From NCBI GenBank assembly GCA_021234155.1, contig JAJEKV010000839.1, positions 1-64,000 of the forward strand: DNA of 64,000 bases. Reading direction: 5' to 3'. Position numbers and translations under genes: made by a program. Each line of letters starts with the position of its first letter. Within the stretch, counting starts at the first letter, position 1. Shown piece by piece: positions 41,534 through 63,267 of the stretch. The stretch comes from Isoetes taiwanensis (taxonomy: Eukaryota; Streptophyta; Lycopodiopsida; Isoetales; Isoetaceae). The notes below the pieces were generated by a model. The model was not told where the DNA came from, did no database searches, and saw only the letters and a list, made by a program, of their open reading frames with translations.

Positions 41534-43130
41534 TTTTTTTTTTTTTTTTTTTGGAGAAAAGGAAGATTTCTATTAATCATAACGAGTTACATAAAAAAAT
41601 AAAAGAGAATCCATTAGGTTCAAAAATTTCAACTGTTTGTATACACAAAGGTGCTCGAGAATAAAGGAAAATCACAGATCGCAAAAATTGGGACGGGGGT
41701 CCCCACATACAACAATAGGAAGAGGAAGCCCGTCGAATTAAAGGTCTTGAAGGAGGGAAATCGAGTCCGATCCGGTGTCATCCTCGTCTATGATCACCAA
41801 ATCAGAGCCACCGGATCCAATTGCCGTAATTTCATTCCACTTTCGGGAGGAAAGGCAAAGAACCAAAGAGGGGCCGTGTCTAAGAAAAGGATGAGTGCTT
41901 CTCCATGGGCATCGTGTAAGGCTTTGTGATGGTAGAACATGTCTAAAATGAAGGAATTGGTTATCGGTTAGAAGCCTTTCATAATAGAAAAGAAACACAT
42001 CAAGGATATGGGCCTGATAGCCATTTTGTTCATTGTTGAATATCTCTGTAGCAGCCGCATAATTAGATAGATTAGGAAAATTGGGCTTACAATTCATCTT
42101 CGTTGTGAGAGCAATCAGCAGCTCTGAATATCACAAAATTTTCATCAGTAAAAATCATACCATCACACACAAAGATGTTATTAAAGCCTACAAATTATTC
42201 TATAGACAATCAAGTATTATCAGATTTATCTTGTTTGCCATTCTTATGAGCCATTGCAATTCTAGAGATCTCTATCTGAAAAGCTACCTTCATCCAGGCA
42301 ATATCCACCTTATAATTTGAATAATTGACCTTCTTCCTGTGTTTTCAAATAATTCAAAGGGCAGTCTGTTTAAGAGTATTGAGAAATCTATTAGACCCTT
42401 TTAGAAGGTCCATCATATTGGCCCACTTGCCTAAATTATGGCTTTTGCCTTAAAATAGTTATCCGACCATCTCGAAGTCTCTAATTTTGGGCGGGTCGAA
42501 GATGTGATTGATAGTTTTGAGCTATGGCCCAGAGTTTACATTTAGAATTGATCGAAGATCCTTACATCTTACATACATACTATGATTAGTTGGGAGTCGT
42601 GTGGACGGGCACCTCCAAATAAACATTTGCACTTTGGGGAGAGTAGGACTTCGGTTGTTTCTCGAGAATGCTCATGAAGTGTTTATTGGGAACAAGCCAT
42701 TTACGAGTGAGTCAAAGATTTGGAAGGGGCGAACTTTGTATCCCAAGGCAACTTTGTACTTGTGGAGTTCTTTAGGTGCCGGTCGATTTTTACGGGGCTT
42801 TGGCACTCATGCGAGAACCAAAGAACGTCCATGATAGCATCATAGATGACCTTGTCAATCCTTTTGCCTCCTATAAGCTGTTTAATATATTCCCAAGTGT
42901 GCCATTTGTCCCCCTCCCAGAGATGTTGCAACTGCGTAACATCTGCCTCTTTCCATTTTTTCCAGATTTGGGGGTGTTTAAGGGCCCAGCAGACATCATT
43001 TTCTTTAGCAAAAACAGGTGACCAGAAGAGAGAGAAATTGGCACCATCATAGTTAATATCTTTATGCTCAAAACCTTCGGCCACCAAATTCCAGGCCTCA
43101 AAAATTTTCCTCAGGTATTAGGGGCACTCT
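41534..43130 (-). mobile_element. 5'-truncated LINE with perfect target duplication
   Basis: The minus strand carries the C-terminal part of an L1-type ORF2: GANFSLFWSPVF, CWALKHPQIWKKWKEA, LQHLWEGDKWHTW, then the zinc-binding segment CKLCGHSSETINHIFDCP (complement of about 42470-42550, partly frame-broken here and better kept in the right unit), and a KHRK tail. It ends in a 3' poly(A), seen as 23 T at 41530-41552. AACCTTCCTCTTTT flanks both ends (41520-41533 and 43131-43144): a 14 bp target site duplication. This defines the insertion exactly as about 1.6 kb. The frame has several breaks. Confidence 0.92.
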
Positions 43131-44035
43131 AACCTTCCTCTTTTCAAGCTAAATTCTAGGTAAATCTCTGAGAAAATTACGATATCAGTTGCATTTTGAA
43201 TGCTTTCTCCAAGAAAGATCCTTCAGTTTCATTGCCTATGGAAATCCCATAAGCTGCCAATGTAACTATCTCTTCTATACTATAACTGCAACTATCTCTT
43301 CTATACTATAGCTGCAAATTCCAGGACCAAAAGCTAAACTAACAATTTTTTCTCACGAATCACAAATACTTTGTAAAACAAAGTACAAATATCTAGTAAT
43401 GGTGGTAAAGGATACCATGGAATCCACGGTTGAGATGCAACAACACCAATTTCATTGACAATGCGGCTTAACTCGTATTGCTACCACAACAAAGAATATT
43501 TTGCAAGATTTTGAAAAGCAATGCAGAACAAAAATTAGACTGAAGCAAAAATTGGATAAAAATTTCCAAAAATGTAATTTTCTAAAATAAAACTACCAAT
43601 GAAGGAGGAACTCGTTAGCGTCTTCTTAGCACAAAGGGACTCAAAACTGAAAGAGGAAACCGAGGCGCCTTCTAAGACTCGCTATTCTCAGAATTAATAA
43701 AGGGAAAGCCACAACCTTTCTAAAAAAAATAATGAGAATCTAGATACAAAGGAAACATGGATGCAACAAGCATCTCTAAAAGGAGCTAATCTCTATAAAT
43801 AATTGTATTGCATTCAAAAATATGTTATGAAGGTGGCGTATCTCTTCAAGCCAACCTCTATAATAATTGTATTCAAAAAATATGTCATATGAAGGTAGCA
43901 TAACCTCATATCTATCACAAATAAACACATGTACGGAAAGAATCTCAAGCCTCTTGAGTGGCAAATGTTAACATATTCACGAAAAGAATGTCCAAGCGTG
44001 CTTGTTGCCCTTTCTTTTCAGCAGGCAATTGTGAG

Positions 44036-44990
44036 AGGGCCTAACTCTTCTAACACCATATTTGAAGCATGGCCTCTTACGTTTTAAGCTCGGAGGCGCA
44101 CTTTTACTAGTAGATCGCAACAAAGGGTGTGCAAAATTTCTTTACCTGAGATATCCTTTCCTCAGGATCGGGCTGCAACATAGCCAAAACAAGGCTCTTT
44201 GCTTCTTCCGACACCAAACCAAGCGGCCAATGCAAGTGTGAGGCAGCCGGATCCACCGCCATGGAGGAGTTCTTCGTGAATTTGCGATTTTTAGACACGA
44301 GAAGTGATGATTAGAGTAAGCGCCTCATACAGGATCAAACCAGACCCCATATGTCTATCTCGCGTGGAATAATGTCCACCGCACAACCTCGGAGCCAAAT
44401 ATCTTGGTGTTCCGACTACGGATGTAAAGCTGGGAGCAGAACACGAAAAACAAGCCGATATGCGAAATCGAAACCCTAACATCATAGGGTTTTCTTTGCT
44501 GAGGTCACAAAGAACGTTGTTCGGCTTCAGATCCGATTGGATAATGCCCTTTGATGAAGGTCCTGTATAGCTAGAGCAAGATTTGAATAAGAAGAGCCGC
44601 TTCCTTTTCGCATAGCACGCCTTTTCTTGGTGATTACATCAAGCAAGCTACATTCGCACAATTCCATGATCGGTGCCGAATCCCTCGTCTTTGATTACTT
44701 CATGTATATGCACTACGCCGTGGCTGCTGGCTAATTTACGCATGATCTCTATTTCCGTGATCGGCCTGTGGCTCCTACCCGGATGATTTTGCAAGCAAAC
44801 TCTTTCTTACCACCCTGTTTTACTTCGCGCAGAAAACCGGTAGCTTGGCCACGGCGCCGATTTCCTTAAGCGGATCATAGCTCTCATAAGATTGGGAAAT
44901 AAAGGGAATAGGTGTAGTTGAGAAATTCTTCGTCTGATCTCCTGCGTCTCCGTCTCCATACTCGCACTGTAAGTAATGCCAACACAATGC
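44036..44990 (-). pseudogene. Ser/Thr protein kinase, copy in the left tandem unit
   Basis: This minus-strand copy of the kinase gene aligns over its whole length with 50039-50989 but the frame is broken many times. Readable pieces include EEAKSLVLAMLQPDPEERIS, the activation-segment piece VGTPRYLAP and the SCSAPSFTS stretch. The catalytic loop (HRDLKPGN) and the glycine loop are disrupted. Many differences from the intact copy change CTG or CAG to a CG-containing word (CTCTGG to CTCGG, GACTCTGG to GACTACGG, CCTGAAAAAC to CACGAAAAAC). It is either a true pseudogene or a silent copy whose sequence was misread at methylated CHG sites. Confidence 0.85.
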
Positions 44991-45389
44991 AAATGCAGCG
45001 TTCTTATACCTCCGTAAGTTGTCATACCGACCGCACTTTCCGTTCTATAAATATCGATTCGATGGGGTGCCGATGGGGTCGCGACCACGTGCTACGGATT
45101 GAGGCGGGTAGATGGGAGTAGCCCGCAAATTGCCGTGAGAAGCAAGACTATGTGTCCATTGCCGATTCTGAGGTTATTGAAGATGAAAGCCATACTCTTA
45201 CGAGTTGCCCCGCTTTTGAGATAGTGGGAATCATTTTTGACCTTAGCATTCCATTCCACGCGCTTCCACAACTACCGAGCACCATCCGGGCATGACTTGG
45301 CATTATACATACTTGAGGTTCTAGATAAGCGTGCGCAATTACCGAGCCCTCAGTTAGTCATTATCTCCGTTGTCTAGTATCATCATTCT

Positions 45390-45583
45390 TTAAAGGTTTT
45401 TCCCTTGAAAACCTTTTCGAGGCGAGAGGTTTTTAATCCTAGTAGTAATGATTGTACTAGCCCATTGTATGGGTCCCATGACCTATTGGTCATAGTGGAT
45501 GTTAAAAAACTATTCTATTCTATTCTATTCTATTCTATTCTATTCTATTCTATTCTATTCTATTCTATTCTATTTGATAGCCC
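45390..45583 (+). repeat. SINE-like repeat with (CTATT)n tail, duplicated copy
   Basis: Duplicate of the repeat at 39395-39580 inside the right 6 kb unit. The tail has a similar number of CTATT units, slightly shorter. Confidence 0.75.
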
Positions 45584-47543
45584 TTCAAGTTGAACTTCAA
45601 CAGCACGTCAGAGATTTTCATTGCCCGTCAAAAAGTGATGACCTTCGGATCTGAAGTTTATCACTAACGCGATTTTTGGAGATGCAGACTATGTCATCAT
45701 TCGATTTTCTTATTGCTTCAATCCCCTTCAAAATTTCAAAATCCTCATCGTTTGAACGTCATAATGCTCCTTTCGCCAGGCCAAGTTGATCATTGACGAA
45801 TTTCGGAAGTACACTGATGGCAATGAACTGCGATTCTTGGTGCTTCAATCTTGCTTTGAATCTCGAAGTGGCCATCACCAGAGCGTCATAATGGCCGTCG
45901 CCAGACTTCATTATGCCCGTTGAGCCTTTCAAACAAGCTTGCAGAAAAAAATTAAAAATAAACCCAAATATCATTCCATACAATAAGCGTATTCTTATTA
46001 GAGCAAAAATCAATCTTAAATTGGCTTGTCTACAAAATTTTCTCGTCTAGGGCACTCACATCACGAAGAATCCATCTCCCATGCCATCTCTAGAAGTATC
46101 GACGATGTGAAATAGGGGTGCATATTATAGTTCATTTGAAGATGTATGCATGGTGTGATGTCGTGTCTAGTACACAACATCCAGGCTTCCCCACAATTAA
46201 ATTATTTCATCATCGGTCTCAAATGATCATCTAATGATTATGCTTTTCATAATGCATAATGCACCAATAAGCAACTACAAAAGTTTTGAAAGCTTGCAAC
46301 TCATGTTGAAAGCATCATTTTCCTTCCACATAATAATATGGTATGGCTATGACTTTGTCGCATATAAGTTAGGGGTGTGTGCTTTAACTCAATTCAATTC
46401 AATTTAAGGACCTTTTGACAATTAAAGATAATTGATTGTAGACTTTAGGGCATATAATTGAGTAGGGACCTTATAATGTTGAAACTAAAAGTGTGGCATA
46501 AATAAGCTCATCTATAAAGTAGTACAAATTAGAAAATATCTATGGTAACTATCATGTTTATTTTCCTATTACAGGAATGGCCGAGGATGCATGCAATAGT
46601 AGAGGTTTGTAGATATCTTTACATTGGACCAATAACGTTCTAAGCTCAATGACTGAGGAAACATGTAATATGTAGAGATCAGTAGATATCTTTACATTGG
46701 AACAATAATGTTCTAAGCTCCTTGTATACGACTATGGCATCGTTTTTTGAAGAGGCATTTTTATTGTGTAACTGTAAGGATATAATTGGGCATAGTTGCG
46801 CATTTTCTGCAAATTTGTAAGAAAGTGGTAGGGTCTTCTTTATGCATGTATTTTCAAGTGTAGAAACAACCATGTTCATTGAATTTCTTGCCAATGTTAC
46901 CCCTAATGTTTATCAGCAAACATTTCTGAATAGAATAGATATCCAGTAGTGCATCAAAGCAATGAAAGTTGCAAATATAAAACTATATATGCATATTTTG
47001 TCTAATCTAAAATTTCATTTTCCACATCTAAATTACAAATAGAAGGTTTATCATTTGCTATGTTGGTTGTCACTTAAATGCTTTCCTGTTACACTTCCCT
47101 ATGTTCTCCACATTGATAATTGAAAAGAAGGGGCACATCTTTTTAACTGGAATGTTGCAATGCTAAGTAGCAAGTGTTATACATACTGCAATCTTCTAAG
47201 ATTAGACATTTAAAGTTGAATTTTACATCAATATGTTAAAAGCGTATCTCCATGCTGCAAAATCACATGAATTAGAATATGATGTAATGCTGCACCAATT
47301 AGACTATTTGGAATGAAATAATTGTTATAAATGTTTTGGACATATCAAATGTGGAATATGAGGATGAAGTATCATTTTGCTATTTTGGGATTTGAAAAAC
47401 AAGACTTACAAAGATCTGAGATAACTTGTATGGGGAAGTATAGATTGAATACAAAAGGAATTCATATGCAACACAGGAAAATGAAGCATCTTTTCATGCC
47501 CAAAAAACAATAAAAAGTTCACGATTGCAAACCTTCCTCTTTT

Positions 47544-49147
47544 TTTTTTTTTTTTTTTTTGGAATATTTGTATTAATCATAACGAGTTACATAAAAAAAT
47601 AAAAGAGAATCCATTAGGTTCAAAAATTTCAACTGTTTGTATACACAAAGGTGCTCAGAATAACCAGAAAATCACAGACTGCAAAAATTGGGACAGGGGG
47701 TCCCCCACATACAACAAGCCGAGGAAGAGGAAGCCCGATCAGAATTAAAGGTCTTGAAGGAGGAAATCGAGTCCGATCCAGTGTCATCCTCGTCTATGAT
47801 CACCAAATCTGTAGCCACCGGATCCAATTGCCAGCCAATTTCATTCCACTCGGGAGGAAAGGCAAAGAACCAAAGAGGGGCCGTGTCTAAGAAAAGGATG
47901 AGTGCTTCTCCATGGGCATCGTGTAAGGCTTTGTGATGGTAGAACATGTCTCTGAAATGAAGGAATTGGTTATCAGTTAGAAGCCTTTCATAATAGAAAA
48001 GAAACCTGTCAAGGATATGGGCCTGATAGCCATTTTGTTCATTGTTGAATATCTCAGTAGCCGTGATAATTAGATAGATTAGGAAAATTGGGCTTACAAT
48101 TCATCTTCGTTGTGAGAGCAATCAGCAGCTCTGAATATCACAAAATTTTCATCAGTAAAAATCATACCATCACACACAAAGATGTTATTAAAGCCTACAA
48201 ATTATTCTATAGACAATCAAGTATTATCAGATTTATCTTGTTTGCCATTCTTATGAGCCATTGCAATTCTAGAGATCTCTATAGAAAAGCTACCTTCATC
48301 GGGCAATATCCACCTTATAATTTGAATAATTGACCTTCTTCCTGTGTTTTCAAATAATTCAAAGGGCCGTCTGTTTAAGAGTATTGAGAAATCTATTAGA
48401 CCCTTTTAGAAGGTCCATCATATTGGCCCACTTGCCTAAATTATGGCTTTTTGCCTTAAAATAGTTATCCAGCCATCTCCAGAAGTCTCTAATTTTGGGG
48501 CAGTCGAAGATGTGATTGATAGTTTCAGAGCTATGGCCACAGAGTTTACATTTAGAATTGATCCAAGATCCTTACATCTACGTACATACTATGATTAGTT
48601 GGGAGTGCGTGATCTGAGGCACCTCCAAATAAACATTTGCACTTTGGGGAGAGTAGGACTTCCGGTTGTTTCTCGAGAATGCTCATGAAGTGTTTATTGG
48701 GAACAAGCCATTTACCAGAGTGAGTCAAAGATTTGGAAGGGGCCAGAACTTTGTATCCCAAGGCAACTTTGTACTTGTCAGAGTTCTTTAGGTGCCAGTC
48801 AGGATTTCTGGGGCTTTGGCACTCATTCTGAGAACCAGCAACGTCCATGATAGCATCATAGATGACCTTGTCAATCCTTTTGCCTCCTATAAGTCATTTT
48901 AATATATTCCCAAAGTGTGCCATTTGTCCCCTCCCGGAGATGTTGCAAGCAAGCGTAACATCGCCTCTTTCCATTTTTTTCGATTTGGGGGTGTTTAAGG
49001 GCCCAGCAGACATCATTTTCTTTAGCAAAAACAGGTGACCAGAAGAGAGAGAAATTGGCACCATCATAGTTAATATCTTTATGCTCAAAACCTTCGGCCA
49101 CCAAATTCCAGGCCTCAAAAATTTTCCTCAGGTATTAGGGGCACTCT
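47544..49147 (-). mobile_element. Same LINE insertion in the right 6 kb unit
   Basis: Duplicate of the 41.5-43.1 kb LINE, with the same 14 bp flanking repeat AACCTTCCTCTTTT (47530-47543, 49148-49161) and a 21-base T run. The zf-RVT segment is more complete here: GHSSETINHIFDCPKI is readable on the minus strand near 48490-48540. Differences from the left copy are mostly at CAG/CTG sites, for example CCAGTCAGGATTTCTGGGG here against CCGGTCGATTTTTACGGGG. Confidence 0.92.
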
Positions 49148-50038
49148 AACCTTCCTCTTTTCAAGCTAAATTCTAGGTAAATCTCTGAGAAAATTACGAT
49201 ATCAGTTGCATTTTGAATGCTTTCTCCAAGAAAGATCCTTCAGTTTCATTGCCTATGGAAATCCCATAAAAGTCGCCAATGTAACTATCTCTTCTATACT
49301 ATAACTGCAACTATCTCTTCTATACTATAGCTGCAAATTCCAGGACCAAAAGCTAAACTAACAATTTTTCTCTGAATCACAAATACTTTGTAAAACAAAG
49401 TACAAATATCTAGTAATGGTGGTAAAGGATACCATGGAATCCACGGTTGAGATGCAACAACACCAATTTCATTGACAATGCGGCTTAACTCGTATTGCTA
49501 CCACAACAAAGAATATTTTGCAAGATTTTGAAAAGCAATGCAGAACAAAAATTAGACTGAAGCAAAAATTGGATAAAAATTTCCAAAAATGTAATTTTCT
49601 AAAATAAAACTACCACAGAAGGAGGAACTCGTTAGCGTCTTCTTCGCACAAAGGGACTCCAAAACCTGAAAGAGGAAACCGAACTGCCTTCTAAGACTTC
49701 TGCTATTCTGTAACTAATAAAGGGGAAAGCCACAACCTTTCTAAAAAATAATGCAGAATCTAGATACAAAAGGAAACATGGATGCAACAAGCATCTCTAA
49801 AAGGAGCTAATCTCTATAAATAATTGTATTGCATTCAAAAAATATGTTATGAAGGTGGCGTATCTCTTCAAGCCAACCTCTATAATAATTGTATTCAAAA
49901 AATATGTCATATGAAGGTAGCATAACCTCATATCTATCACAAATAAACACATGTACAGAAGAATCTCAAGCCTCTTGAGTGGCAAATGTTAACATATTCA
50001 CAGAAAGAATGTCCAAGCGTGCTTGTTGCCCTTTCTTT

Positions 50039-50989
50039 TCAGCAGGCAATTGCAGAGGGCCTAACTCTTCTAACACCATATTTGAAGCATGGCCTCTTAC
50101 GTTTTAAGCTCTGAGGCGCACTTTTACTAGTAGATCTGGCAACCCAAGGGTGTGCCAAAATTTGCTGCACAGATATCCTTTCCTCAGGATCAGGCTGCAA
50201 CATAGCCAAAACAAGGCTCTTTGCTTCTTCTGACACCAAACCAACTGGCCAATGCAAGTGTGAGGCAGCCAGATCCTCGCCATGGAGGAGTTCTTCGTGA
50301 ATTTCTGCAGTTTTTAGACCTGAGAAGTGATGATTCCGAGTAAGCGCCTCATACAGGATCAAACCCAGACCCCATATGTCTATCTCTGTGGAATAATGTC
50401 CCTGCACAACCTCTGGAGCCAAATATCTTGGTGTTCCGACTCTGGATGTAAAACTGGGAGCAGAACCTGAAAAACAAGCCGATATGCCGAAATCCGAAAC
50501 CCTAACATCATAGGGTTTTGCTGCTGAGGTCACAAGAACGTTGCCTGGCTTCAGATCCCGGTGGATAATGCCCTTTTGATGAAGATCCTGTATAGCTAGA
50601 GCAAGATTTCGAATAAGAAGAGCCGCTTCCTTTTCGCATAGCCTGCCTTTCTTGGTGATTACATCAAGCAAGCTACATTCGCACAATTCCATGATCAGGT
50701 GCCAGAATCCCTCGTCTTTGATTACTTCATGTATATGCACTACGCCAGGGCTGCTGGCTAATTTCTGCATGATCTCTATTTCCGTGATCGGCTCTGTGGC
50801 TCCTACCCAGATGATTTTGCAAGCAAACTCTTTCTTACCTCCTGTTTTACTTCTGCAGAGAAAAACCGTAGCTTGGCCACCGCTGCCGATTTCCTTAAGC
50901 AGATCATAGCTCTCCAGAAGATTGGGAAATAAAGCAGAATAGGTGTAGTTGAGAAATTCTTCGTCTGTCTCCTGCGTCTCCGTCTCCAT
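50039..50989 (-). CDS. Ser/Thr protein kinase, intronless, CAMK/PPCK-like
   Basis: This is the only intact protein gene recognised: 316 residues, no intron. Residues 25-285 form one complete kinase domain: glycine loop GSGGQATV (35-42), catalytic lysine in FACKII (58), acidic helix EIEIM, catalytic loop HRDLKPGN (143-150), DFG (166-168), GTPRYLAPEV (185-194), DIWGLGLILYE (204-214) and a C-lobe ending at AHPWVA. The C-terminus is short and basic (SLKRKRPCF), a possible nuclear signal. There is no EF-hand, transmembrane or receptor region, so it resembles the PEP-carboxylase-kinase/CAMK type, but the substrate is unknown. The start METETQET is preferred because its context (A at -3, G at +4) is good. 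An in-frame ATG 12 codons upstream has a poor context. Three broken copies lie at 22.3, 44.0 and 58.8 kb. Confidence 0.85.
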   Translation of the reverse strand: METETQETDEEFLNYTYSALFPNLLESYDLLKEIGSGGQATVFLCRSKTGGKKEFACKIIWVGATEPITEIEIMQKLASSPGVVHIHEVIKDEGFWHLIMELCECSLLDVITKKGRLCEKEAALLIRNLALAIQDLHQKGIIHRDLKPGNVLVTSAAKPYDVRVSDFGISACFSGSAPSFTSRVGTPRYLAPEVVQGHYSTEIDIWGLGLILYEALTRNHHFSGLKTAEIHEELLHGEDLAASHLHWPVGLVSEEAKSLVLAMLQPDPEERISVQQILAHPWVARSTSKSAPQSLKRKRPCFKYGVRRVRPSAIAC

Positions 50990-51081
50990 ACTCAGAATTC
51001 TGTAAGTAATGCCAACACAATGCAAATGCAGACGTTCTTATACCTCTGTAAGTTGTCGCACTGACTCTGCACTTTCCGTTC

Positions 51082-51089
51082 TATAAATA
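51082..51089 (-). promoter_or_regulatory. Possible TATA box of the kinase gene
   Basis: TATTTATA on the minus strand (TATAAATA on plus) lies about 95 bp before the kinase start codon and is kept in the copies near 45050 and 59775. It could serve either direction, since HSP90 and adenylate kinase fragments lie on the other side. Confidence 0.35.
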
Positions 51090-51433
51090 TCAGTTCTATT
51101 CCTGGCTGTCGGGAAAAAGGCCACATCTAAATTAGGAAAAGGCCCAGATACTTGTGTGCTGTCCGTCGGATGTTGGCACGATCCCAAAGCCAACTATACC
51201 GCCCGTTGATGCACAAACACATTGACATGCTCGCAGAGACAGAAACAAAAAGTACAGACAGGATTGGTGGCATTCAGAATTTGCGAATTCCCTGGGAACA
51301 GAGGTATGAATTTTGCATTTGGAATTGGGAAGCTGCCACTTTAGGTAATGGCTTGAAGCCTAACTTACTTTTGTTTTGTTGTGTGCAGCCTTTCAATCAT
51401 CTAGAACTGTTTGCAAACCAAATCATAGTCAAG

Positions 51434-51532
51434 TTCGGTGTCCAGTTTTACTCTGCTTTTGTTGCTAAGAAGGTCATTTTTACTACCAATGGTGGTGATG
51501 AGCAATACGTCTGGGAGTCTCACGCTGGGGGG
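51434..51532 (+). pseudogene. HSP90 N-terminal fragment
   Basis: Within an open frame at 51152-51607, residues 95-127 read FGVQFYSAFVAKKVI, FTTNGG and DEQYVWESHAGG. This is the strand-turn segment of the HSP90 ATP-binding domain (normally FGVGFYSA and DEQYVWES). The glycine after FGV, which is part of the nucleotide lid in HSP90, is replaced by Gln. A plausible intron (TTAG then GTAATGG to GTGTGCAG, about 51345-51389) precedes it. Only some 35 residues of HSP90 are present, so this is a captured exon fragment. It lies tail-to-head with the adenylate kinase fragment on the same strand, 360 bp downstream, and divergent to the kinase gene. Confidence 0.75.
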
Positions 51533-51617
51533 CTCCAAATGGGAGTATTGTTATGGAGCTGGGTTATTAGTCCTGTTGTCACTTCTTGGGGGTTCGAAAA
51601 GGATTGAAAATTGATAA

Positions 51618-51842
51618 TTATGTCAAAAAGGATCTGGCACTTTCTGAAGGGTGCTCAGAAGCTGCCTGATTCTGTCTGGGATGTATGATAACTGCCTTGC
51701 CCCTCTTGCTAAAGTATGCATGAATGGCTTGCACGTCTTTGCCAACTGTGCAGAATGAGTTCAGGCAGAGGAGGATCCCGTATCTGGATGGCTTTGCATA
51801 TTCTTGTGCCCTCTTCTCCAAGTTATTATCGATAAAGTTCAT
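51618..51842 (-). CDS. Conserved unknown open frame, 74 codons
   Basis: A minus-strand frame begins MNFIDNNLEKRAQEYAKP and contains NSFCTVGKDVQAIHAYFSKR. The same frame is open, with a slightly longer upstream part, at 22931-23236 in the deleted copy. Its conservation may only reflect recent duplication. I do not recognise it, and it lies between the HSP90 and adenylate kinase fragments on the opposite strand, so it may be chance. Confidence 0.2.
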   Translation of the reverse strand: MNFIDNNLEKRAQEYAKPSRYGILLCLNSFCTVGKDVQAIHAYFSKRGKAVIIHPRQNQAASEHPSESARSFLT

Positions 51843-51894
51843 CTGAAAGACTCAGTGAAAGACTCAGTGGTGTTTTCGTTTGAAATAGACTGTA

Positions 51895-52452
51895 ATGGAA
51901 ATGAGAACTCAAGGAGAGCCACCAAAGGTCATGATCTCTGGGCATCCAGCATCAGGAAAGGGTACAATGCGAACTTATAAAGAAAAAGGTATTTCACTTT
52001 CTCAATCCATGATTTATATTTCGTTGGACACTTTAGCTTTATTGACAATCTGTTTGGAAAAACTCCCAGTAAAATTTGGTACATATTTCAGTTGGTAACC
52101 TGTTGCAGGCTGAAGTGGCCGCAGGAACAGAATATAGAAAGAAGGCTAAAGACTATATGGACCAGGGAAAACTAGCTTCTGATGAAGTTGTGGTCACAGT
52201 AATTATGACTTATGGATGATTCACGATGTTCTCTAATTGATCATCCCTTTTAGGCTCCAGGACCTGTACCATTATTAGTATTATTTTGCAAAGTATGGAA
52301 CTTGAAATGTTTAGATGAATGTCTGACTGTCTTAGTTTTCATTTTAGATGGTCAGGTAGAGACTGGAACAAGATGATGTGCAAGAAAAGCATGGCTTGGA
52401 TGGATATTCCTGCAGTTTATCTCGGGCAGACCACAGTTATTCCTCCTCCTTG
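51895..52452 (+). pseudogene. Adenylate kinase fragment, copy 2
   Basis: Exon-like blocks on the plus strand match plant adenylate kinase. Block 1 (51895-51989) encodes EPPKVMISGHPASGKGT, the P-loop, and ends at a GTATTT donor. Block 2 (52109-52198) is exactly 30 codons between TTGCAG and GTAATT: AEVAAGTEYRKKAKDYMDQG, then KLASDEVVVT, the AMP-binding region. Block 3 starts at 52348 after ATTTTAG with MVR, a stop, RLEQDDVQEK, then a damaged GLDGY stretch that in active enzymes carries a conserved DG-PR motif. The segment between the P-loop and block 2 that normally holds a GD motif is missing. The in-frame stop and missing part make this non-functional. It is shared with the 23.2 kb copy. Confidence 0.8.
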
Positions 52453-52459
52453 AGGTGAG

Positions 52460-55400
52460 CACAAGTACTCCTTGTTTGCAATGGAGAGTTTATGCCCCAC
52501 ATGTTTCTGCGTCTAATGAATATAACAAAGGAAATTATGGTAAAAAACCATAGTTGTTATGATCTTCATTCCTATATGGCTTTGCATAGACCGAGCCACC
52601 GAGGGGTTTACAAAATATTGTATGGTGGTGGAAACTGTTGATGCTGGTGAAGAAACTACAAGAGATGGCAATGGTTAAGGAACCCTTCCACCTTCTTAGA
52701 ATTGCCCTGATAGATGCAGCAGAGGTAGATGCCTTACTTTCTTATTATCCATGCAAATTTTATTGGCCTTGCTTTACCAGTCTCCAATATCTTCTAAAGC
52801 ATACACATGGAAATAAGGAAACGGAAGCAGTAGACTAAACTAGCCTGATTGTGGCAGGCATGACTGGTCTAAAAGAAGGTTGTGAACTTACAAAACTCTC
52901 TAAAGAATGGGGGACCCATTTTAGGATCTGTTGCAGCAAATAAATGAAGATTTATACTCTTCTAATGTTGAATATCTAATCACAATGGGACAAAAGCATG
53001 TACCAAATACATGAGCTAAACTATGGAGCTTCTAAGACCCTATGGTCCACTCTTTTATACAATATAAGGTAGGCCAAAGAAATCAAAGGAATAGCTATGT
53101 GCTTCCTTTTAGTGCCCCATCCAAATTTTACCACTTAAAAAAAAAGGGAGGGAAATAAAGCACCACCAAACACAAAATTACTCACAGTTCATAGAGGTTA
53201 AAATTCAAAGATGTCGAAGAAAACCCAGGCTGGATCACAGAGGTGGCAAGGCTTGCAATGCTTGTCCAAAAAATAACTACCATTTTTGTACATCAAACCA
53301 TGAAATAACAATAACAAGGGCCTTGTTCTGCAAGCACTCAGTTCAATAGTTTGAATGATAACATATAATAGCCATTTTTCTTTTGAAAAATCCAAGTAAG
53401 CTTTAAAATGAGATCTCAAGCATACCTTTAGAAGAGGCATGACAGAAGATACTACAATACCTTATCTCATTTTGCCTTTTACAGTAGCATTATGTGTCGC
53501 CGCTTTAGTCTACCGAGTATGCAATGTACAGCCCCTTGCAACTAGCCAATAAATGATGCATGAAACAAAAGGCAAATCTCCAACCTTTTGGCGTTTGGTA
53601 GGCAACTTCCATTTCAGATTAGAGACGCCTGATGACGCGAAAGAACAAAAATAAATGATATGCATTACAGACGCTAACCACCTTTGAGAATAGTCCTAAG
53701 AATTTACTTGAAGGTGCTTACTCGTGTTGATCACCTCAACTTTCTAACCATTTCTAGAACATTCAAGATGACCTTAGATGATCTAAGAGTGTCCAGAGGT
53801 TCATGCCAATGCCTTCAATTCTCCCTACCTGTTAGTTTCCTTTGGAACCAGCATTGCATGCAATTGACTGCTCACTGTACCATGGACAACATTTTATAAA
53901 GGAAGACAATCAACATAACAGGTACTTTTATCCTTTTTAAAAGGTACAGTAACTTTTTAACAATACTCCAAAACCACAGACCTTCAAAATAGAGTACACC
54001 AATGATGGAATTACCAATGCCCCAAATGCTATAGGGCTAAAAACTGGAAACAGTACAATCTGCAAATAAGCAAAATCACTCAATACAATGAATACCACAT
54101 CAAATAAGCAAAATCACTCAATACAATGAATACCACATCAGCACTGCATCATTACACTGGCTAAGAAAGTTAAAATACTGGGAAGGATGGATATGTCAGA
54201 TGCATATGTAGAGACAAACTATGGAGTATCATGATATAGCCACAACAAACATGTACAAATCCTGAAGTTTACAGGTTTCCAAGGGGACCACAAACATGAG
54301 CATTAGTTCCTGCCAGTTTTCTGTCAGTTCCTTACAGCTTTTCCAAATCTCAAGAAAATATTGGTGATGTTTTGGCATCACACACATGTAGTTGCAATCC
54401 TATGACACGAATTTGCTTGCATCACACTGTCAATAAGTTGCTTAATTGAAGGCATGTAAGACAAAACATTGGTGTTGCACTATGCTTTAAGATATGCTTC
54501 TCACCTCCAACTTCCATCTCCACCGCATTGTAAAGTGGCTTAAAATTACCATGAAAGAAGCAGCATAAACATGCAAATCTACTGCAGAACATTCATCCAC
54601 ATGTAGGTAGTATTTAAGCTTATCACTTTGTCTGTAATTTATAAAATGTAAAGGACAATACATCAAAGCATCACCCTAGCACAATAGTAGTGACAGTTGC
54701 CAACCAAACGTCAAAACAACTTTCATTTTAGATTGGAGACATAGATGACGCAGAGATTGACAATCCGTAAAAAGAGCAACAACCTATGAACAATCAAAGT
54801 TAACTTTTGACCTCCTTAGAATCGAAGAATAGCATTATTTGCATGTTCAACACATTAGTATGGAGACATTAATATTTGCTTAGACGTTTTCCGAACATTA
54901 GAAAATAGAAAAGTAGAAAACGTGTTACCTTAACCTTCTAAGAATGCATCCATGAATGTCTCGTGCATCCATGATATTCCTAACAGTTTTGCTGACATGT
55001 GCCTCTTGCAGCCATGCCCACAACTCCACCTGTCAATGGCAAGAAAATAATGTTAGTCTGGAAATGTAAACAGATAAGCATAACCAGATTTCATGCTTTC
55101 TCCTGCATCAATAATTGCTCCGTTTCCATCGTGAATTGCTTCTATCTAAATTTATGCACTACATGGGAAGGATATTTTTTTAAATCCAAGACAAATATGG
55201 GCACAGATTGAATAAACCTACTTGAATCATCAATAGTGTGGCCCTCTTACATTTAAAAATGCTATGCCAGATCAATATTTTTGCCATCTTACATTCTCAA
55301 AAGGTCTTGTTACAGACCCGGCAACTGCAACTGCCAACAAACATCTTTCTTTTCTGATGAAAAATGGCTCTACGGATCTAATTATTTAAAAGACTGCTTC

Positions 55401-55880
55401 AACCATTCTGGACTTCAAAAGCATGGAAGCCCAAATGAAAAAACTAACAAACTGCCTGTAGTGGTTGTTAAAACAATGGATTTGAGTTTGCATTGGCACA
55501 CCACCACCATCAACTAAACTTAACAAGTAGAGTTTTTGGGTTGCAAGTAATTTGAATCACTTAGGGTCAAGGTTTCACTCTCTATTTCTACAAATTTGCT
55601 ATTGTGGAACCCTTCATATTTCAACTCAGGGTAAGGAGGCTCTAAGGTGGCCTATCCTTCTCACAGATCCAGACAAATCGACCTAGCTTGCATAACGTTA
55701 TAGTGAACAAACATGAGTAGCTTGCATGCAGATTCAACATCATGCCTAACGATGAAAACAAATGTTACCGTTCGCACCCATAATGAAAAAGCATTCTTAT
55801 ATGTGCAACTCTGGCATTTTTTGTTATTCGTTCGTGTTGGGAGGTATAACCTCAAGCCAACTAAAATTGAAGAATGGAAT
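52460..55880. other. Intergenic, no gene recognised
   Basis: AT-rich, CAG/CTG-rich sequence without recognisable domain. It includes a short tandem duplication at 54063-54138 (38 bp twice, CAAATAAGCAAAATCACTCA at each start) and two loosely similar stretches near 53590 and 54690 (both with GATGACGC after an AGATT-GAGAC motif), suggesting an old duplication. Confidence 0.5.
54063..54138. repeat. 38 bp tandem duplication
   Basis: Two identical adjacent copies beginning CAAATAAGCAAAATCACTCA and ending AATACCACAT. Confidence 0.95.
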
Positions 55881-56030
55881 GATTTTTATTGTTCATGGGG
55901 ACCAATCGGCCTATGGAACCCAATGAATGAGCACATCACATCAGACTTATTACTATCCGGATTAAAGAACCCCCGCCCCGAAGGATTTTCGAGGGGAAAA
56001 TCATGACAATAATAAGAATGTTATCAAACT
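55880..56030 (-). repeat. SINE-like repeat, no tail array
   Basis: TTTTTATTGTTCATGGGGACC, CAATCGGCCTATGGAACCCA, ACTTATTACTATCCGGATTA and a hairpin around AACCCCCGCCCCGAAGG, in the same order as 56530-56720. It lacks the pentanucleotide array. Confidence 0.7.
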
Positions 56031-56454
56031 GTACGAATATATATCATGAGATATATATACATGTCAGGTGAATGTTCGAGAATGTAGGTGATCCCCCAGA
56101 TCCATGACCCTCTGAAGGTATGATCCCATCATCCATATTGAAGCTATGCTCAATATCACATGTAGCGGCTGGCTGGGCCTGACCAACTTATTATAGCATG
56201 TCCGAATTTGACCATAACTGGACATCTCTAAAGCAAAATGACTAAATATGGAGGATTTTACATGTATAATTCTTTATGCATGATTAGAATTGTCAAAATA
56301 ACAATGTACTAGACAAATTCAAGAAGCAAACAAATCTACAAAAAAATTTAGAAAACTAAAATTAATAGAAATGTTGTATACATACTTATAGATTCAGTTT
56401 CTTGACAAAATTAGAATGCATTAGGTATGCCCGATCAAACCATTGCTGCAAAAA

Positions 56455-56730
56455 ATCATTCTATTCTATTCTATTATATTCTGTTCTATTCTACAATATG
56501 TGAGCTCATTTTGGTGTTGCATTTATTCTTCTAACAATTACGAATAGAATAGAATAGAATAGAATAGAATAGAATAGAATAGAATAGTTTTTATCATCCA
56601 AAGAGACCAATCGGCCTATGAGACCCAAGAAGGAGCACAACAGACTTATTACTATCTGGACTAAAAAACCCCTGCCGCGAGGGGTTTTCGAGGGAAAAGT
56701 CATAGGAGTAATAAGAATGTTGTCAAACTG
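56455..56730 (-). repeat. SINE-like repeat with (GAATA)n tail
   Basis: (GAATA)n at about 56543-56587, then TTTTTATCATCCAAAGAGACC, AATCGGCCTATGAGACCCAA, ACTTATTACTATCTGGACTA and hairpin CCCCTGCCGCGAGGGG with a further TTTTCGAGGGAAAA. A (CTATT)n tract in opposite orientation lies just upstream at 56458-56493. Confidence 0.75.
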
Positions 56731-56734
56731 TAGA

Positions 56735-57230
56735 AATATACTTGGCATTAGTCCATCCTCGCATCTTTAAGAAATGGAGAGCCCATGGGATTTTGAGCTT
56801 ACGACATCTATGGGAGAATAGTACATGGATCTCATGGTCTAAATTCAGACTTATAGTGCAAAGAATAGGAGAAGGAGACAGAAGGATGCTAAAAAAGATT
56901 TTGGAAACGGTTAAGCTTTTCTCTGGGGTTGATTGTTCTAGGAAAAAATAGTCTTGTACGGTCAAAGAAATGTATATTATAGCTAGAATCTATCAGGCTC
57001 TCTATGATGGCTCTCCTCTAAAAGCAGAAGTTAGGCTACAGGTGGATGGGATGGTGCCTAACCTTCTCTTAGCAAATTCGTGAAAAACATTATGCTTTAG
57101 GAGAGTACAATTCTTTAGGTGGACAGCTCTTCAAGGTGGTCTCAATACCAAAGAGAAGTTGGTGCTTAGAGGAATCTTGACTGAACACCAGTGCCCACTG
57201 AAGAATAGGAAGCGTCTTGCTCCCATCTGT
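56735..57230 (+). mobile_element. LINE ORF2 C-terminal fragment
   Basis: The plus strand encodes VHPRIFKKWRAHGILSLRHL, WENSTWISWSKFRLI and GEGDRRMLKKILETVKLFSG, then in broken frames the ALQGGLNTKEKLVLRGIL region also present near 23850. This is the stretch between the reverse transcriptase and zf-RVT of an L1-type element, related to the 23.7 kb LINE. After CAGTGCCCACT the two copies differ. No poly(A) follows. Confidence 0.8.
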
Positions 57231-57415
57231 ATGTTTTGTGAAGGCACTTGTTCGTTCTCCCTGCCGTAGAAAACATTGTTGCCATTGTAGCCAATAACTC
57301 CCTTTTTGGGCATTTTGGTAATTTTAGCAAGGTGTAGGGGGCATTCTGGCTTTTTTCCTATGATCTATTCGCTACTAGATTACTTTTGATGAACTTGGTT
57401 GTGCTGGATCTATGG

Positions 57416-57487
57416 CGCAGTGGTAGCGCGTCTGACTCCAGATTAGAAGGTTGCGTGTTCGATTCACGTTGGGTTCAATTTTGTGTT
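57416..57487 (+). tRNA. tRNA-Trp (CCA)
   Basis: A 72 nt tRNA with anticodon CCA. A box TGGCGCAGTGG and B box GTTCGATTC are complete, and the anticodon arm is TCTGA-CTCCAGA-TTAGA. The acceptor stem GGATCTA pairs fully with TGGGTTC, including wobble pairs. A short T run follows for Pol III termination. No CCA is encoded, as in eukaryotic nuclear genes. It looks functional. Confidence 0.93.
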
Positions 57488-57686
57488 CCAATATGAGAAG
57501 CACTTCTCGTAATTTTTGGTGTTACACTCAGATGATTCAAGCAAGTAGAACACTCATGTTACATTCCAAATGCTCTGATCTGAGTGAGTGTGACACTCCA
57601 AATTCTCTTTAACTCCAATTCAGCAATGCCTTTCTATCTGTATACATGATCTATTAGAGGGCTTTAAGAAGCTAAAATTCTATTAT

Positions 57687-57759
57687 GGGGTTGTAGCTCA
57701 GATGGTAGAGCGCTCGCTTTGCATGCGAGAGGCATTGGGATCGATACTCAACTTCTCCA
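57687..57759 (+). tRNA. tRNA-Ala (TGC), probably decayed
   Basis: A 73 nt tRNA-like sequence with a normal A box (TAGCTCAGATGG) and anticodon TGC in CTTTGCATG. The T loop reads ATCGATA instead of TTCGANN, which breaks the Pol III B box. The acceptor stem GGGGTTG against CTTCTCC has two T-T mismatches. The T stem still pairs through TTGGG/CTCAA. Probably a pseudogene. Confidence 0.75.
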
Positions 57760-57773
57760 TTGTTTTTGTGCAT

Positions 57774-57941
57774 CATTGTTAAATAGGGATATAAAAGACT
57801 CACTGGGAAATGACCTCGAATTGAAATTTAAACAATAGCATTGTTAAATAGCGATATGAAAGACTCAATAGCTGGGAAATGACCTCGAATTGAAATTTAA
57901 ACAATAGCATTGTTAAATAGCGATATGAAAGACTCAATAGC
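57774..57941. repeat. About 67 bp tandem repeat, 2.5 copies
   Basis: CATTGTTAAATAGCGATATG, AAAGACTCAATAGC and TGACCTCGAATTGAAATTTA recur at about 57774, 57839 and 57908. The last is cut off where the kinase-block copy begins. Confidence 0.92.
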
Positions 57942-59892
57942 GTAAATCTCTGGGAAAATTACGATATCAGTTGCATTTTGAATGCTTTCTCCAAGAAAGA
58001 TCCTTCAGTTTCATTGCCTATGGAAATCCCATAAGCTGCCAATGTAACTATCTCTTCTATACTATAACTGCAAATTCCAGGACCAAAAGCTAAATTAACA
58101 ATTTTTTCTCTAAATCACAAATACTTTGTAAAACAAAGTACAAATATCTAGTAGTGGTGGTAAAGGATACCATGGAATCCACAGTTGAGATGCAACAACA
58201 CCAATTTCATTAACAATGCGGCTTAACTCGTATTGCTACCACAACAAAGAATATTTTGCAAGATTTTGAAAAGCAATGCAGAACAAAAAATTAGACTGAA
58301 GCAAAAATTGGATAAAAATTTCCTAAAATGTAATTTTCTAAAATAAAACTACTGATGAAGGGGAGGAACTTCGTTAAGCGTCTTCTTCGCACAAAGGGAC
58401 TCAAAAACGGAAAGAGGAAAACGAGCTGCCTTCTAAGACTTACGCTATTCCGTAACTAATAAAGGGGAAAGCCACAACCTTTCTAAAAATAATCACGAGA
58501 ATCTAGATACAAAAGGAAACATGGATGCAACAAGCATCTATTCTAAAATTCAAAACATATGTTATGAAGGTGGCATCTCTTGAAGGAAGGAAGGAAGGTA
58601 TTGGAAGCCAACCTCTATAATAATTGTATTCAAAAATATGTCATATGAAGGTAGCATAACCTCATATCTATCACACAAATAAACACATGTCTGAAGCCTC
58701 TTGGTGGCAAATGTTAACATATGCACACAAAAGAATGTACAAGCACGCTTGTTGCCCTTTCTTTTCAGAGACAATTTGAGGAGGGCCTAACTCTTCTAAC
58801 ACCATATTTGAAGCATGGCCTCTTAAGTTTTAAGCTCGAGGCTCACTTTTACTAGTAGATCACGGCAACCCAAGGGTGTGCCAAAATTTCTTACCTGAGA
58901 TATCCTTTCCTCGGGATCAGGCTGCAACATAGCCAAAACAAGGCTCTTTGCTTCTTCGACACCAACCCAACTGGCCAATGCAAGTGTGAGGCAGCCGGAT
59001 CCTCGCCATGAGGCGGTTCTTCGTGAATTTCTGCTGGTTTTTAGACACGAGAAGTGATGATTCGGTGGCGCCTCATACGGGATCAAACCCGGACCCCATA
59101 TGTCTATCTACGTGGAATAATGCACAACCTCGAGCCAAATATCTTGGTGTTCCGACTACGGATGTAAAACTGAGGCGAACGTAACGAAAAACAAGCCCGA
59201 TATGCGAAATCCGAAACCCTAACATCATAGCAGGAGATCACAAGAGCGTTGCACGGCCCGGATCGGTGGATAATGCCCTTTTGATGAAGGTCCGTATAGC
59301 TAGAGCAAGATTTCGAATAAGAAGAGCGGCTTCCTTTTCGCATAGCACGCCTTTCTTGGTGATTACATCAAGCAAGCTACATTCGCACAATTCCATGATC
59401 GGTGCGAGAATCCCTCGTCTTTGATTACTTCATGTATATGCACTACGCCCGGCTGGGCTAATTTTACGCATGATCTCTATTTCCGTGATCGGCTCTGTGG
59501 CTCCTACCGGATGATTTTTGCAAGCAAACTCTTTCTTACCTCCTCTTTTACTTATGAGAAAACCGTAGCTTGGCCTTGGCGATTTCTTAAGCGGATCATA
59601 GCTCTCAAAGATTGGGAAATAAAGCGAGAATAGGTGTAGTTGAGAAATTCTTCGATGCTGTCTCCTGCGTCTCGTCTCCATACTCCAAATTACGTAAGTA
59701 ATGCCAACACAATGCAAATGCAGACGTTCTTATACCCTGTAAGTTGTCGACCCGACTCTGCACTTTCCGTTCTATAAATATCGGTTCTATTCACGGTGCT
59801 CGGGAAAAAGGCCACATCTAAATTAGGAAAAAGGCCGGATACTTGTGTTGTCCGTCGGATGTTGGCACGATCCCAAAGCCAACTATACCGCC
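57942..59892. repeat. Fourth copy of the kinase block
   Basis: Matches 49180-51188 in order, from AAATCTCTGGGAAAATTACG to GCCAACTATACCGCC. The left end abuts the 67 bp tandem repeat. The right end abuts a copia LTR. Near 58578 it holds an extra 22 bp (AAGGAAGGAAGGAAGG plus TATTGG) not present in other copies. It lacks the LINE, because its left end starts just after the LINE site. Confidence 0.92.
58770..59690 (-). pseudogene. Ser/Thr protein kinase, copy 4, frame-broken
   Basis: The minus strand aligns with the intact kinase gene along its length. Pieces such as KKEFACKNH, GATEPITEIEIM and EEAKSLVLAMLQPDPEERIS are readable, but the glycine loop, the catalytic loop (RDLKPGN) and the activation segment are broken by small gaps and substitutions. 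As in the 44 kb copy, many differences turn CTG or CAG into CG-containing words (CTCTGGAGCC to CTCGAGCC, TTTCTGCATG to TTTACGCATG). No product is expected. Confidence 0.87.
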
Positions 59893-60087
59893 TGTAGCAG
59901 AATGGATCAAACAAGAGAGCAAGAACCGGGGACCAAGAAGTGTGCAAATAAGCCGTCCAGAATCGTTGGAACAGCCTGGTACTTATAATCCTAAAGTACA
60001 ACGTATCTCGCCATATTTATGGCGTGGCAGACTTACGCTTTATGAAGAACTTCCTATAACTAACCCTAACAAGAATATCTTCTATCA
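59893..60087 (-). repeat. 3' LTR of a Ty1/copia element
   Basis: The 195 bp segment begins TGTAGCAGAATGG and ends TTCTATCA on the plus strand (TG...CA). The adjoining CTCCCCATT is a polypurine tract on the minus strand, next to the LTR as expected. TATAAGTACC on the minus strand may be the LTR TATA box. The flank CCGCC (59888-59892) should recur beyond the other LTR, which lies outside the window. Confidence 0.65.
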
Positions 60088-60229
60088 CTCCCCATTACGC
60101 ACAAGCGAAGTGGGAGAGAATCTAAAGTAACAATGAACAAATGCTCATTTGAAGAGATACTGAAAACAAACAAGTCATGGTATGCGCCCCTTAGCTCGCT
60201 GCTCAAGGAGCAGCATGCAGCCCAAAAAG

Positions 60230-60560
60230 ATTGTCGGTGGCGCTCAAAGAGATCTGGCTGGAAGAGGCTTAGTGAGCGAATCGGCGGGCATGAGATGTGT
60301 GGGAAGATATTGCATTATGATAGTGCCGGCTGAACACATTCACGGGTAAAATGGTGATGAATCCCAATATGTTTTGGCGTTTGTGGAGAATGGGATTCTC
60401 GGAGAGCAATGGCACTCTTATTGTCATTGAAGATCACAATGAGGTCCGAGGTTGAGAGAAGCCCAGTTCACGAAGAAATTATGCGCCAAAGCGTTTCCCT
60501 TACAACGGTGAGAGGTGGCCATGTACTCGGCTTCCACACGGGAAGAAAGAGCAACACCGT
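60230..60560 (-). pseudogene. Copia RNase H domain, degenerate
   Basis: The minus strand reads VEAEYMATSH (about 60500-60525), then NDNKSAIALRESH and PKHIGIHHHFTREC, and ADSLTKPLP near 60285. These are the characteristic C-terminal blocks of copia RNase H (an AEYxA motif, a DNxxAI motif, a KHI...H motif and the LTKPL end). They lie in different frames, so the domain is not translated intact. It ends the pol gene just before the polypurine tract and LTR. Confidence 0.85.
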
Positions 60561-60719
60561 ACGTTTGGAGCTAAGCAAATAAGCGATCCTCCATGGAGCA
60601 TGATGGCAAAGCACGTGGTGGATCTCTGAGTGTCAATGTCGCACAATGTCGGCATCAACAAGCGCGAAGCCGAACGCCGGGATCATGTTGATGGTGCATA
60701 GAAGTAATCAAGATGAGAG

Positions 60720-61790
60720 GTGCCCTTTAAGTAGCGAATGATTAAACAACCACTTACCAATGAGCGGGGGCCAGGGATGTTCCATGAACCGTGACAAGAC
60801 CTACAGCATTGCGATATCACGGGCCAGTGCTGACCATAATAATGCGGTGAGGCGGCAACGGCATCTGCGGTATGGAATCGATGCATCTGTTCTTGTTCGG
60901 CGGCGAGGCTTGATCCGCGGGATAATTTGAGATGTGTAGACAGAGGGTGGCTTTGGGAGATGCATTGGAAAGGCCAAATCGAGAGCAGATTTTTATGAAT
61001 GGCTTTTGTTGATGAATGAGCAGAAGCGGGTGGCACGATTGCGAAGTGATCTCAAGACCTGCGGTGATCTGAGGACGGAGGTCAACCATAGAAAAGCTTC
61101 TTTGCCGCGTTTGAGATTGTGAAAGGCGGAATGGGGAATTGGTGTGGCAAGAATCAAGTCATCGACATAGACTACGACAATAATGACGATGTATTGGCAA
61201 AGCGAACATAGACATTCCATTCAGAGGCCCGGCGGTGAGCATAGCAGTGGTGTGTAAAATTTGTCAAGCTTTAATTGTACCCGAATTTGAGGACTTTGTT
61301 TGAGACCATAAATAGAACGATTAAACATACCAGGTTATGGTTGTTTTCACCGCCACAAAGCCTTCAGAACGCGCATGAAAATATCTTGACGAAGGTCCCC
61401 ATTCAAGAACGCGATCTTGACATCCATTTGATGAAGTTCAGATTTTCTTGAGCTGCGGCAAGAACTACTCGGATAGAGGCAAGTTTTTAGCCACTGGGAG
61501 AATGTCTCATCATAATCCAAACTGCGATTTGAGAGAAGCCTTTTGGCAACAAAGGCGAGCTTCGGAAATTTCAATGTGATTGGCTTCGAAGTTTTGATCT
61601 TGAAGACCCATTTGCGCGACCAATTGCCTTCCTACTGCAGTAATGGAACCAAGTCCCACGCTTGAGTCTCTTTCATGGATTGGAGTTCCTCTTGCATGGC
61701 GAAGTTTCGGTGAGCAAACATGAGGTCCAGCCAAAGCTGCAGAGATTGTGAGAGGCTCCACAGATCGGGGCACAAATGTGATATGGCGCA
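60720..61790 (-). pseudogene. Copia reverse transcriptase domain, degenerate
   Basis: Readable blocks on the minus strand are LDYDETFSQWLKT and LHQMDVKIAFLNGDL (61347-61574), SIYGLKQSP (about 61290), VVYVDDLILA (61150-61180, containing the catalytic YVDD), and GTSHLDYFY (60690-60720), typical of the copia RVT_2 family. Frame breaks separate them. A start region near 61620 has LVAQMGL in place of the usual tryptophan motif in another frame. Not functional as read. Confidence 0.88.
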
Positions 61791-62559
61791 GCCTCATCTA
61801 AGTCGGCATGCCACCAACGGGGATAATGGTGGTCAAGATAGTCTTGATGAGGTTGCCCGGCGAAGAGTGAATTACCCACGATGGTGACGAGCGAGGTGTG
61901 GGTTTAGGAGCGCGACTAGACCCGGAAGTGAGAGGAGGAGGAAGGACCGCGGTGTGGTGGAGGCATGAGGATGTGGAGGCGTGGAAAGTGGCCGTGAGAC
62001 CTTGGCGGGGTGGGGTGGACAAGGGAGATCTAGGCACGAGGGGATAGATGAGAGAGGTGGAGCGCAGGGGAAGGAAGGAAGGTTGGAGAGGGAGAAGGAG
62101 CTGAATTGACAAATGGAATATCAAGCCGAGGCCAGTGTGTGCTCGAGCTTGGAATAAATCGTATTAACATGAGCTCGAAGTAGGCTGTAGCTCTATGCCT
62201 TGTTCATCAAATGTACAGCAGAGATAGCTTTTGATTACCTGCGGGTGTTGGCATCCAAAAGGCGGTAGCCTTTACTATCTTTGACAAAGTTAGCCAACAA
62301 AGATACTGCGCCGAGCATGGTCCTCTGATTTCTTCGAACAGCGGGCGACACATGAGCATATCTTTGGACAATAGAAGATGCGGAGATGGTGATATGCGGA
62401 ATGTGACCAAACCAAGCTTCAAATGGTTATGCCTACGAAGCGCAACCCGTGGGTGTCTGATTGGATAGATAATTTGTTTGTAACAATGGCTTACGCCGGC
62501 GAAGCCATCGGGAAGAGGCCGGCAAATTTGAGCATACTCGGGGCACTCTCCTTGAGGGT

Positions 62560-63250: not shown

Positions 63251-63267
63251 AAGCAAACTTCTTTTAA

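Follow-up and report, generated by a model that had tools for sequence, protein, structure and literature searches.

Probable methylation-associated base-calling errors

Dcm methylates the inner cytosine of its site, which gives a 5-methylcytosine (5mC) that is followed by W and G. The sites considered here are CAG/CTG (CWG) sites in a 64,000-nucleotide stretch of DNA from Isoetes taiwanensis (assembly GCA_021234155.1, contig JAJEKV010000839.1, positions 1 to 64,000, hereafter the window), in which broken copies of a protein kinase locus very often feature a CG-containing word where the intact copy features CAG or CTG. Judged from the pattern of differences between the copies, these CG words are very probably nanopore base-calling errors at CHG-methylated cytosines, which survived where accurate reads gave no correction.

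This is an error of a known kind, and its precedents are given here from excerpts of the published reports. About 70% of the K. pneumoniae consensus errors were located in Dcm CCAGG/CCTGG sites under the then-default Oxford Nanopore Technologies (ONT) models, custom training nearly abolished the Dcm errors, and a human-trained Chiron model gave 0.29% Dcm errors (PMC6591954). As is proposed for the window, a 5mC-W-G motif is misread and dominates the consensus errors, and in the Dcm case this depends on the training data; unlike the window, the Dcm case is bacterial and features a fixed five-base motif. The errors of a rice ONT assembly were clustered, the error-enriched regions were significantly more methylated, and 1,475 genes were affected (PMC7736813). 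The rice errors, likewise from a plant, resemble those proposed here in that clustered base-level errors break gene models; in rice they are linked to methylation and low short-read coverage, and Nanopolish was used to call the methylation from the nanopore data. In bacterial nanopore genomes, A/G and T/C ambiguities that lean to C or G in a strand-dependent manner were ascribed to methylation (PMC11610573). The A/G and T/C confusion, the lean to C or G and the strand dependence are shared with the window, whereas the bacterial motifs (such as RACG/CGTY) and the Kit 14 libraries are not; the excerpts on these bacteria deal with substitutions. Additionally, plant read accuracy was improved by species-specific models (PMC9749173). 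The word-level signature reported here (CAG to CGN, CTG to NCG) was not found in the literature searched, which consisted mostly of titles and abstract openings, and it may be in print. The additions made here are this word-level CHG signature and a caveat concerning polishing. An E. coli carB comparison with 5,426 genomes, considered as a control for Dcm errors, was set aside because the sequencing platform is not evident from the records; 5375 records were matched, and among the best 60 of 5375, 59 were full-length and 95.7-100% identical.

If the base-calling explanation is correct, such an assembly contains many false differences between copies, many of its seeming frameshifts and pseudogene lesions are likewise not real, and dating, selection tests and gene counts on duplicated or repeat-rich DNA would be misled. 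The balance of CWG and CG words would then allow uncorrected, CHG-methylated stretches to be detected without a reference or raw reads, but this balance reflects methylation and polishing together.

Differences between the kinase copies are concentrated at CAG/CTG

The window features a 6-kb tandem duplication (39098-45063 and 45099-51099) with 94.8% identity, 159 mismatches and 157 gap columns, which includes two copies of a long interspersed nuclear element (LINE)-bearing unit, LINE A and LINE B, and two copies of the kinase locus, K44 and K50 (Table 1). A further partial duplicate at 57942-59895 (86.9% identity) includes a third copy, K58. A fourth piece, K22, aligns with 49807-50614 (97.2%) and 51538-52357 (99.1%) and is located outside the region covered by the original prediction (43780..59890). 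Relative to 49807-52357, K22 is missing ~0.92 kb that encodes the kinase's N-terminal half and extends into upstream DNA, and its two matches overlap by 3 bases. The K50 protein matches the protein kinase profile over its full length (Pfam PF00069, E 9.3e-58, profile positions 1-263 of 263), and the solved structures that match it best are CDPK/CaMK-type kinases. Because its frame is intact and its kinase domain is complete, K50 is the natural choice of reference when changes are given a direction.

Alignment of the copies recovered all six kinase examples on which the original prediction was based. K50 GACTCTGG reads GACTACGG, TTTCTGCATG reads TTTACGCATG and ATGATCAGGTG reads ATGATCGGTG in K44 and K58 alike. 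At other sites the two copies are different: K50 CTCTGGAGCC is CTCGGAGCC in K44 and CTCGAGCC in K58, CCTGAAAAAC is CACGAAAAAC in K44 and TAACGAAAAAC in K58, and TATCAGTTC is TATCGGTTC in K58 and TATCGATTC in K44.

Difference blocks were counted with K50 as the reference, and the null for block contact was the independent random placement of the blocks in 2000 draws. For K58, 61 of 64 blocks were kept, and blocks of more than 14 columns or at the alignment end were dropped. In K44, 39 of the 58 CAG and CTG triplets are broken. The count over all triplets is 244 of 1291, and the reversed control words, GAC and GTC, give 3 of 17; the respective counts in K58 are 49/62, 355/1375 and 5/20. The left part of K22 is nearly unscarred, with 4 of 33 CAG and CTG triplets broken. 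CWG is contacted by 35 of the 53 blocks in K44 (random mean 10.2, maximum 19) and by 40 of the 61 blocks in K58 (random mean 12.5, maximum 25), and contact with GAC/GTC is at the level of chance (3/53 and 5/61). A Fisher test of CWG triplets against the remainder in K44 gave a p of 1.5e-16, which is indicative only, as overlapping triplets are non-independent. CCG/CGG sites are also broken (7/15 in K44, 8/19 in K58), and bases more than 2 positions from a CNG or CG differ at 1.2% in K44 and 3.5% in K58. The concentration at CAG/CTG is real and strong, and the earlier claim that the kinase copies differ mainly at these sites is borne out by the block contacts and by the counts of broken triplets.

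Product words and independence of the hits

The blocks that touch CWG are distinguished by their products. A new CG appears in 28 of 35 such blocks in K44 and 27 of 40 in K58, whereas the remaining blocks gain one in 1 of 18 and 1 of 21 cases (Fisher p 1.6e-7 and 1.7e-6, respectively). Among the simple products, CTG to ACG and CAG to CGG are the most frequent, as determined from single-triplet word counts that leave out sites with matched flanks more than 16 columns apart. Pure single C>T/G>A changes among the CWG-touching blocks number 0/35 in K44, 0/40 in K58, 1/6 upstream of K58, 1/35 in the direction LINE B to LINE A and 0/17 in the direction A to B. Isolated CG, away from CHG context, is kept at 14 of 16 positions in K44 and 13 of 16 in K58. 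The LINE pair keeps 39 of 50, and 3 of its 11 losses read TG or CA. The products are accordingly unlike the decay of methylated cytosine, which had been pointed out in the original prediction.

The three-copy comparison covers 58 CWG sites in K50, K44 and K58, with sites inside short deletions scored as broken. K44 is broken at 44 of these sites and K58 at 49; the two share 38 broken sites, where independence predicts 37.2. The two copies have the same word at only 8 of the 38 jointly broken sites and different words at 30. Control 5-mers away from CNG and CG (n = 394) are broken 17 times in K44, 44 times in K58 and never in both. The same sites are hit recurrently with products that are for the most part not inherited, as is expected of methylation-induced nanopore errors. 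Scars inherited from a common ancestor were rejected as the main cause, because the joint hits equal the independent expectation and the words differ at 30 of 38 sites.

The same blocks affect the reading frame. Within the coding region, only 4/44 blocks in K44 and 4/45 in K58 are neither CWG, CG-related nor homopolymer-length. Among the frame-changing blocks of the coding region, CWG is touched by 11 of 21 in K44, where 5 more are homopolymer-length, and by 14 of 16 in K58. Many of the frameshifts in K44 and K58 are probably artefacts, as had been claimed.

LINE copies, homopolymer noise and polishing

The bias is also found between the LINE copies, as proposed earlier. With B as the reference, 35 of 103 blocks contact CWG compared to 8.2 expected, and 25 of these 35 gain CG in A; in the other direction, 17 of 103 contact CWG of A compared to 6.0 expected, and 7 gain CG. 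The differences in the LINE pair are patchy, with 32, 5, 25, 3, 26, 0 and 12 blocks in consecutive stretches. In the classification of blocks, homopolymer-length outranks CNG, and indels within CNG or CG context were scored as CNG or CG. Across 24 windows of 200 bp, substitutions do not track the CNG blocks (Spearman 0.06). Six LINE windows have no CNG blocks, and these contain 0 homopolymer or indel blocks, although 5 of the 6 contain CWG sites. A zf-RVT fragment in LINE B (48362-48571, minus strand, E 1.8e-4, under Pfam's own cut-off) is in keeping with a LINE reverse transcriptase.

The segments 39756-41368 and 45764-47374 of the two units are near-identical over 1.6 kb (5 blocks in 1611 bp), with dense differences on both sides. 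This near-identity may reflect polishing, gene conversion or true identity, which are indistinguishable here.

The ratio of homopolymer-length to CNG blocks relative to K50 is 11:4 in K22, 5:39 in K44 and 2:48 in K58. The motif differences are separate from homopolymer noise among the kinase copies, but the two are coupled in the LINE pair. K22 appears to be unpolished yet unscarred, if its differences are errors, which supports a dependence of the scars on methylation.

Proposed origin of the CG words

The explanation by base-calling errors at methylated CHG involves the following steps. The native DNA of some copies would bear 5mC at CAG/CTG, and also at CCG, and a network that was trained on 5mC mainly within CG would impose a C-G step on these sites. 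The typical output would be CAG to CGN and CTG to NCG, frequently with a base gained or lost, and the error would be retained by the consensus. Polishing with accurate reads would clear the error only where these reads map well. The site specificity, the product spectrum, the independent hits between copies and the survival of most ordinary CG are features of the data themselves, as is the separation of CWG damage from homopolymer noise in the kinase copies. The indel and homopolymer differences between the copies are consistent with native nanopore DNA.

Several results weigh against this explanation. No CG is gained in 7 of the 35 CWG blocks in K44 and 13 of the 40 in K58. The strand asymmetry of the simple products (CTG to ACG or CAG to CGG 25 times, the reverse complements 3 times; p 2.7e-5) argues for base-calling errors, but it was determined from a pooled count that includes the same sites twice, and it is weak in K44 alone (8 vs 3, p 0.23). 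K44 and K58 have variants in common relative to K50, a complex change near 50163-50170 and an A to G at 50585, and they may be sister copies in which some of the identical words were inherited; if they are sisters, the differing words at common sites are even harder to ascribe to inheritance. In the LINE pair, contact with GAC/GTC is raised as well (16 vs 7.3 and 14 vs 7.0 expected) and is not fully explained. Additionally, the CNG blocks of the LINE pair covary with the homopolymer and indel blocks (Spearman 0.64, p 9e-4, 24 windows). This covariation may result from local correction by accurate reads, or from true identity such as gene conversion, and it suggests that methylation is not the sole determinant of the scars there. 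The scars would mark DNA that is CHG-methylated and not corrected, and the absence of scars is ambiguous, being expected of both corrected and unmethylated DNA. The original prediction that a base-caller had misread putatively silent copies is partly upheld, in that the changes act like site-specific, product-variable CHG read errors and not like inherited mutations, but its corollary that the pattern maps methylation directly is not supported as stated, since the density of LINE scars follows that of homopolymer and indel differences.

A variant of this reading retains the methyl-CHG nanopore errors and ascribes the clean copies and patches to short-read polishing alone, with no difference in methylation. 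The covariation in the LINE pair argues for it, as does the rice assembly, in which ~94% of the error regions were located at a short-read cover of 5 or less according to the excerpted report (PMC7736813), but K22 keeps its CWG (4/33 broken in the left part) despite 11 homopolymer-length differences, if those are errors. Polishing alone is a possible explanation that we consider rather doubtful. A real, context-specific hypermutation would resemble repeat-induced point mutation (RIP) with a new product, consisting of a copy-directed rewriting of CHG to CG words and small indels in duplicated DNA. The targets are homologous copies, a single event could yield 67% and 79% of CWG hit compared to 1.2% (K44) and 3.5% (K58) elsewhere, and read error and base change cannot be separated from sequence alone. 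However, known deaminase-type processes yield C>T, and a RIP-like or deaminase process that gives C>T/G>A in a preferred context was rejected from the spectrum of the CWG blocks (0/35, 0/40, 1/6, 1/35 and 0/17). The products also differ between the copies at 30 of 38 same sites and combine substitutions with gains and losses of bases, read orientation is the better explanation for a strand-asymmetric product at a palindromic site, and homopolymer-length differences of the long-read type occur between the copies as well. Such a hypermutation is very improbable.

Ordinary pseudogene decay via deamination of methylated cytosine would account for frameshifted copies in which CWG is the main target, as is expected of methylated CHG, and CAA/TTG and ATG/CAT rise slightly as CWG falls (-0.37 and -0.29, respectively). 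It is disfavored by the near absence of C>T/G>A at CWG and by the survival of isolated CG. Deamination of 5mC, in which CG is lost first and TG or CA is gained, was rejected, as isolated CG is kept and CG rises as CWG falls (Spearman -0.50). We regard decay as having almost no chance of being the correct explanation, and the trend in CAA/TTG and ATG/CAT suggests that some true decay may be mixed in.

Composition along the window

The signature can also be followed without alignment. Over 64 one-kb windows, the observed/expected ratios of CWG and CG are inversely related (p 2e-5), GC content is unrelated to CWG (-0.006), and the slight climb of CAA/TTG and ATG/CAT noted above was obtained from the same windows. 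Among 32 trinucleotide classes, the distribution of CWG is the least even (dispersion 5.45), followed by AAA/TTT (4.90) and CGC/GCG (4.74). A two-state hidden Markov model (HMM) fitted to the succession of CWG and CG words has a log-likelihood of -1637, compared to -1805 for one state. Its tracts (Table 1) agree with the alignments, though they are not independent of them in the kinase copies. The scarcity of CWG alone was rejected as proof, because 40001-40500 and 46001-46500 hold one CWG each and the LINE copies hardly differ there, so that the stretch holding these segments may genuinely be without CWG.

Table 1. Copies of the kinase locus and the LINE-bearing unit, and compositional tracts, in the window
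Feature	Position	Strand	Basis or remark
K50, intact kinase open reading frame, 316 amino acids	50039..50989	-	Unscarred reference copy
K50 locus, portion aligned with the 44-kb copy	49807..51099		Alignment; CWG-rich tract
K44, kinase-locus copy, CWG sites reading as CG words	43786..45063		39/58 CWG broken
K58, second scarred copy	58605..59895		49/62 CWG broken; alignment start 58542
K22, fourth copy, without counterpart of about 50615-51537	22055..23670		Two abutting matches
LINE A, left LINE-bearing unit in the 6-kb tandem duplication	39098..43785		More scarred than LINE B
LINE B, right LINE-bearing unit in the 6-kb tandem duplication	45099..49806		Alignment
CWG-poor, CG-rich tract, holds K44	43356..46636		HMM; 40 CWG, 118 CG
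CWG-rich tract, holds K50	46653..55679		HMM; 266 CWG, 120 CG
CWG-poor, CG-rich tract, holds K58	58372..63988		HMM; 98 CWG, 258 CG
CWG-rich tract, holds K22 minus its first 146 bases	22201..25226		HMM; 99 CWG, 37 CG
CWG-poor tract, 326-328 bp satellite and flank	140..6207		HMM; 42 CWG, 150 CG

The satellite had also been said to display the bias, and the quoted example exists, with CACAGATG in the monomer at 3273 and CACGGATG in the monomer at 2945. The monomers are, however, too divergent for a clean count. Six other aligned monomers are 76-84% identical to the reference monomer and their alignment is ambiguous, and the satellite was rejected as a main witness.

Other features of the window

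The segment 12950-13250 consists of variant units that end in GCGTGACAAA, with a CACTAGTAGAG-like end on the reverse strand near 13249. We take this arrangement to resemble the terminus of a CACTA DNA transposon together with its subterminal repeats. On visual inspection, most of the differences between the units involve CG/CAG words and appear scar-like. The segment 26001-27000 is AT-rich and features a strong CG excess of 2.07 (observed/expected), repeated GGCGTCTGGCGA-like words and long runs of T and A, and it is perhaps part of a repeat-rich mobile element. An open reading frame on the minus strand at 31604-32206 weakly matches a SET domain (Pfam PF00856, E 4e-5) and is located inside a CWG-poor tract; the same errors may have disrupted its gene model. 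The region 57405-57760 features genes for tRNA-Trp (CCA) and tRNA-Ala (TGC) that are separated by 0.2 kb. A 69-bp tandem repeat (57774-57941) directly follows the tRNA pair and adjoins the start of the K58 duplication.

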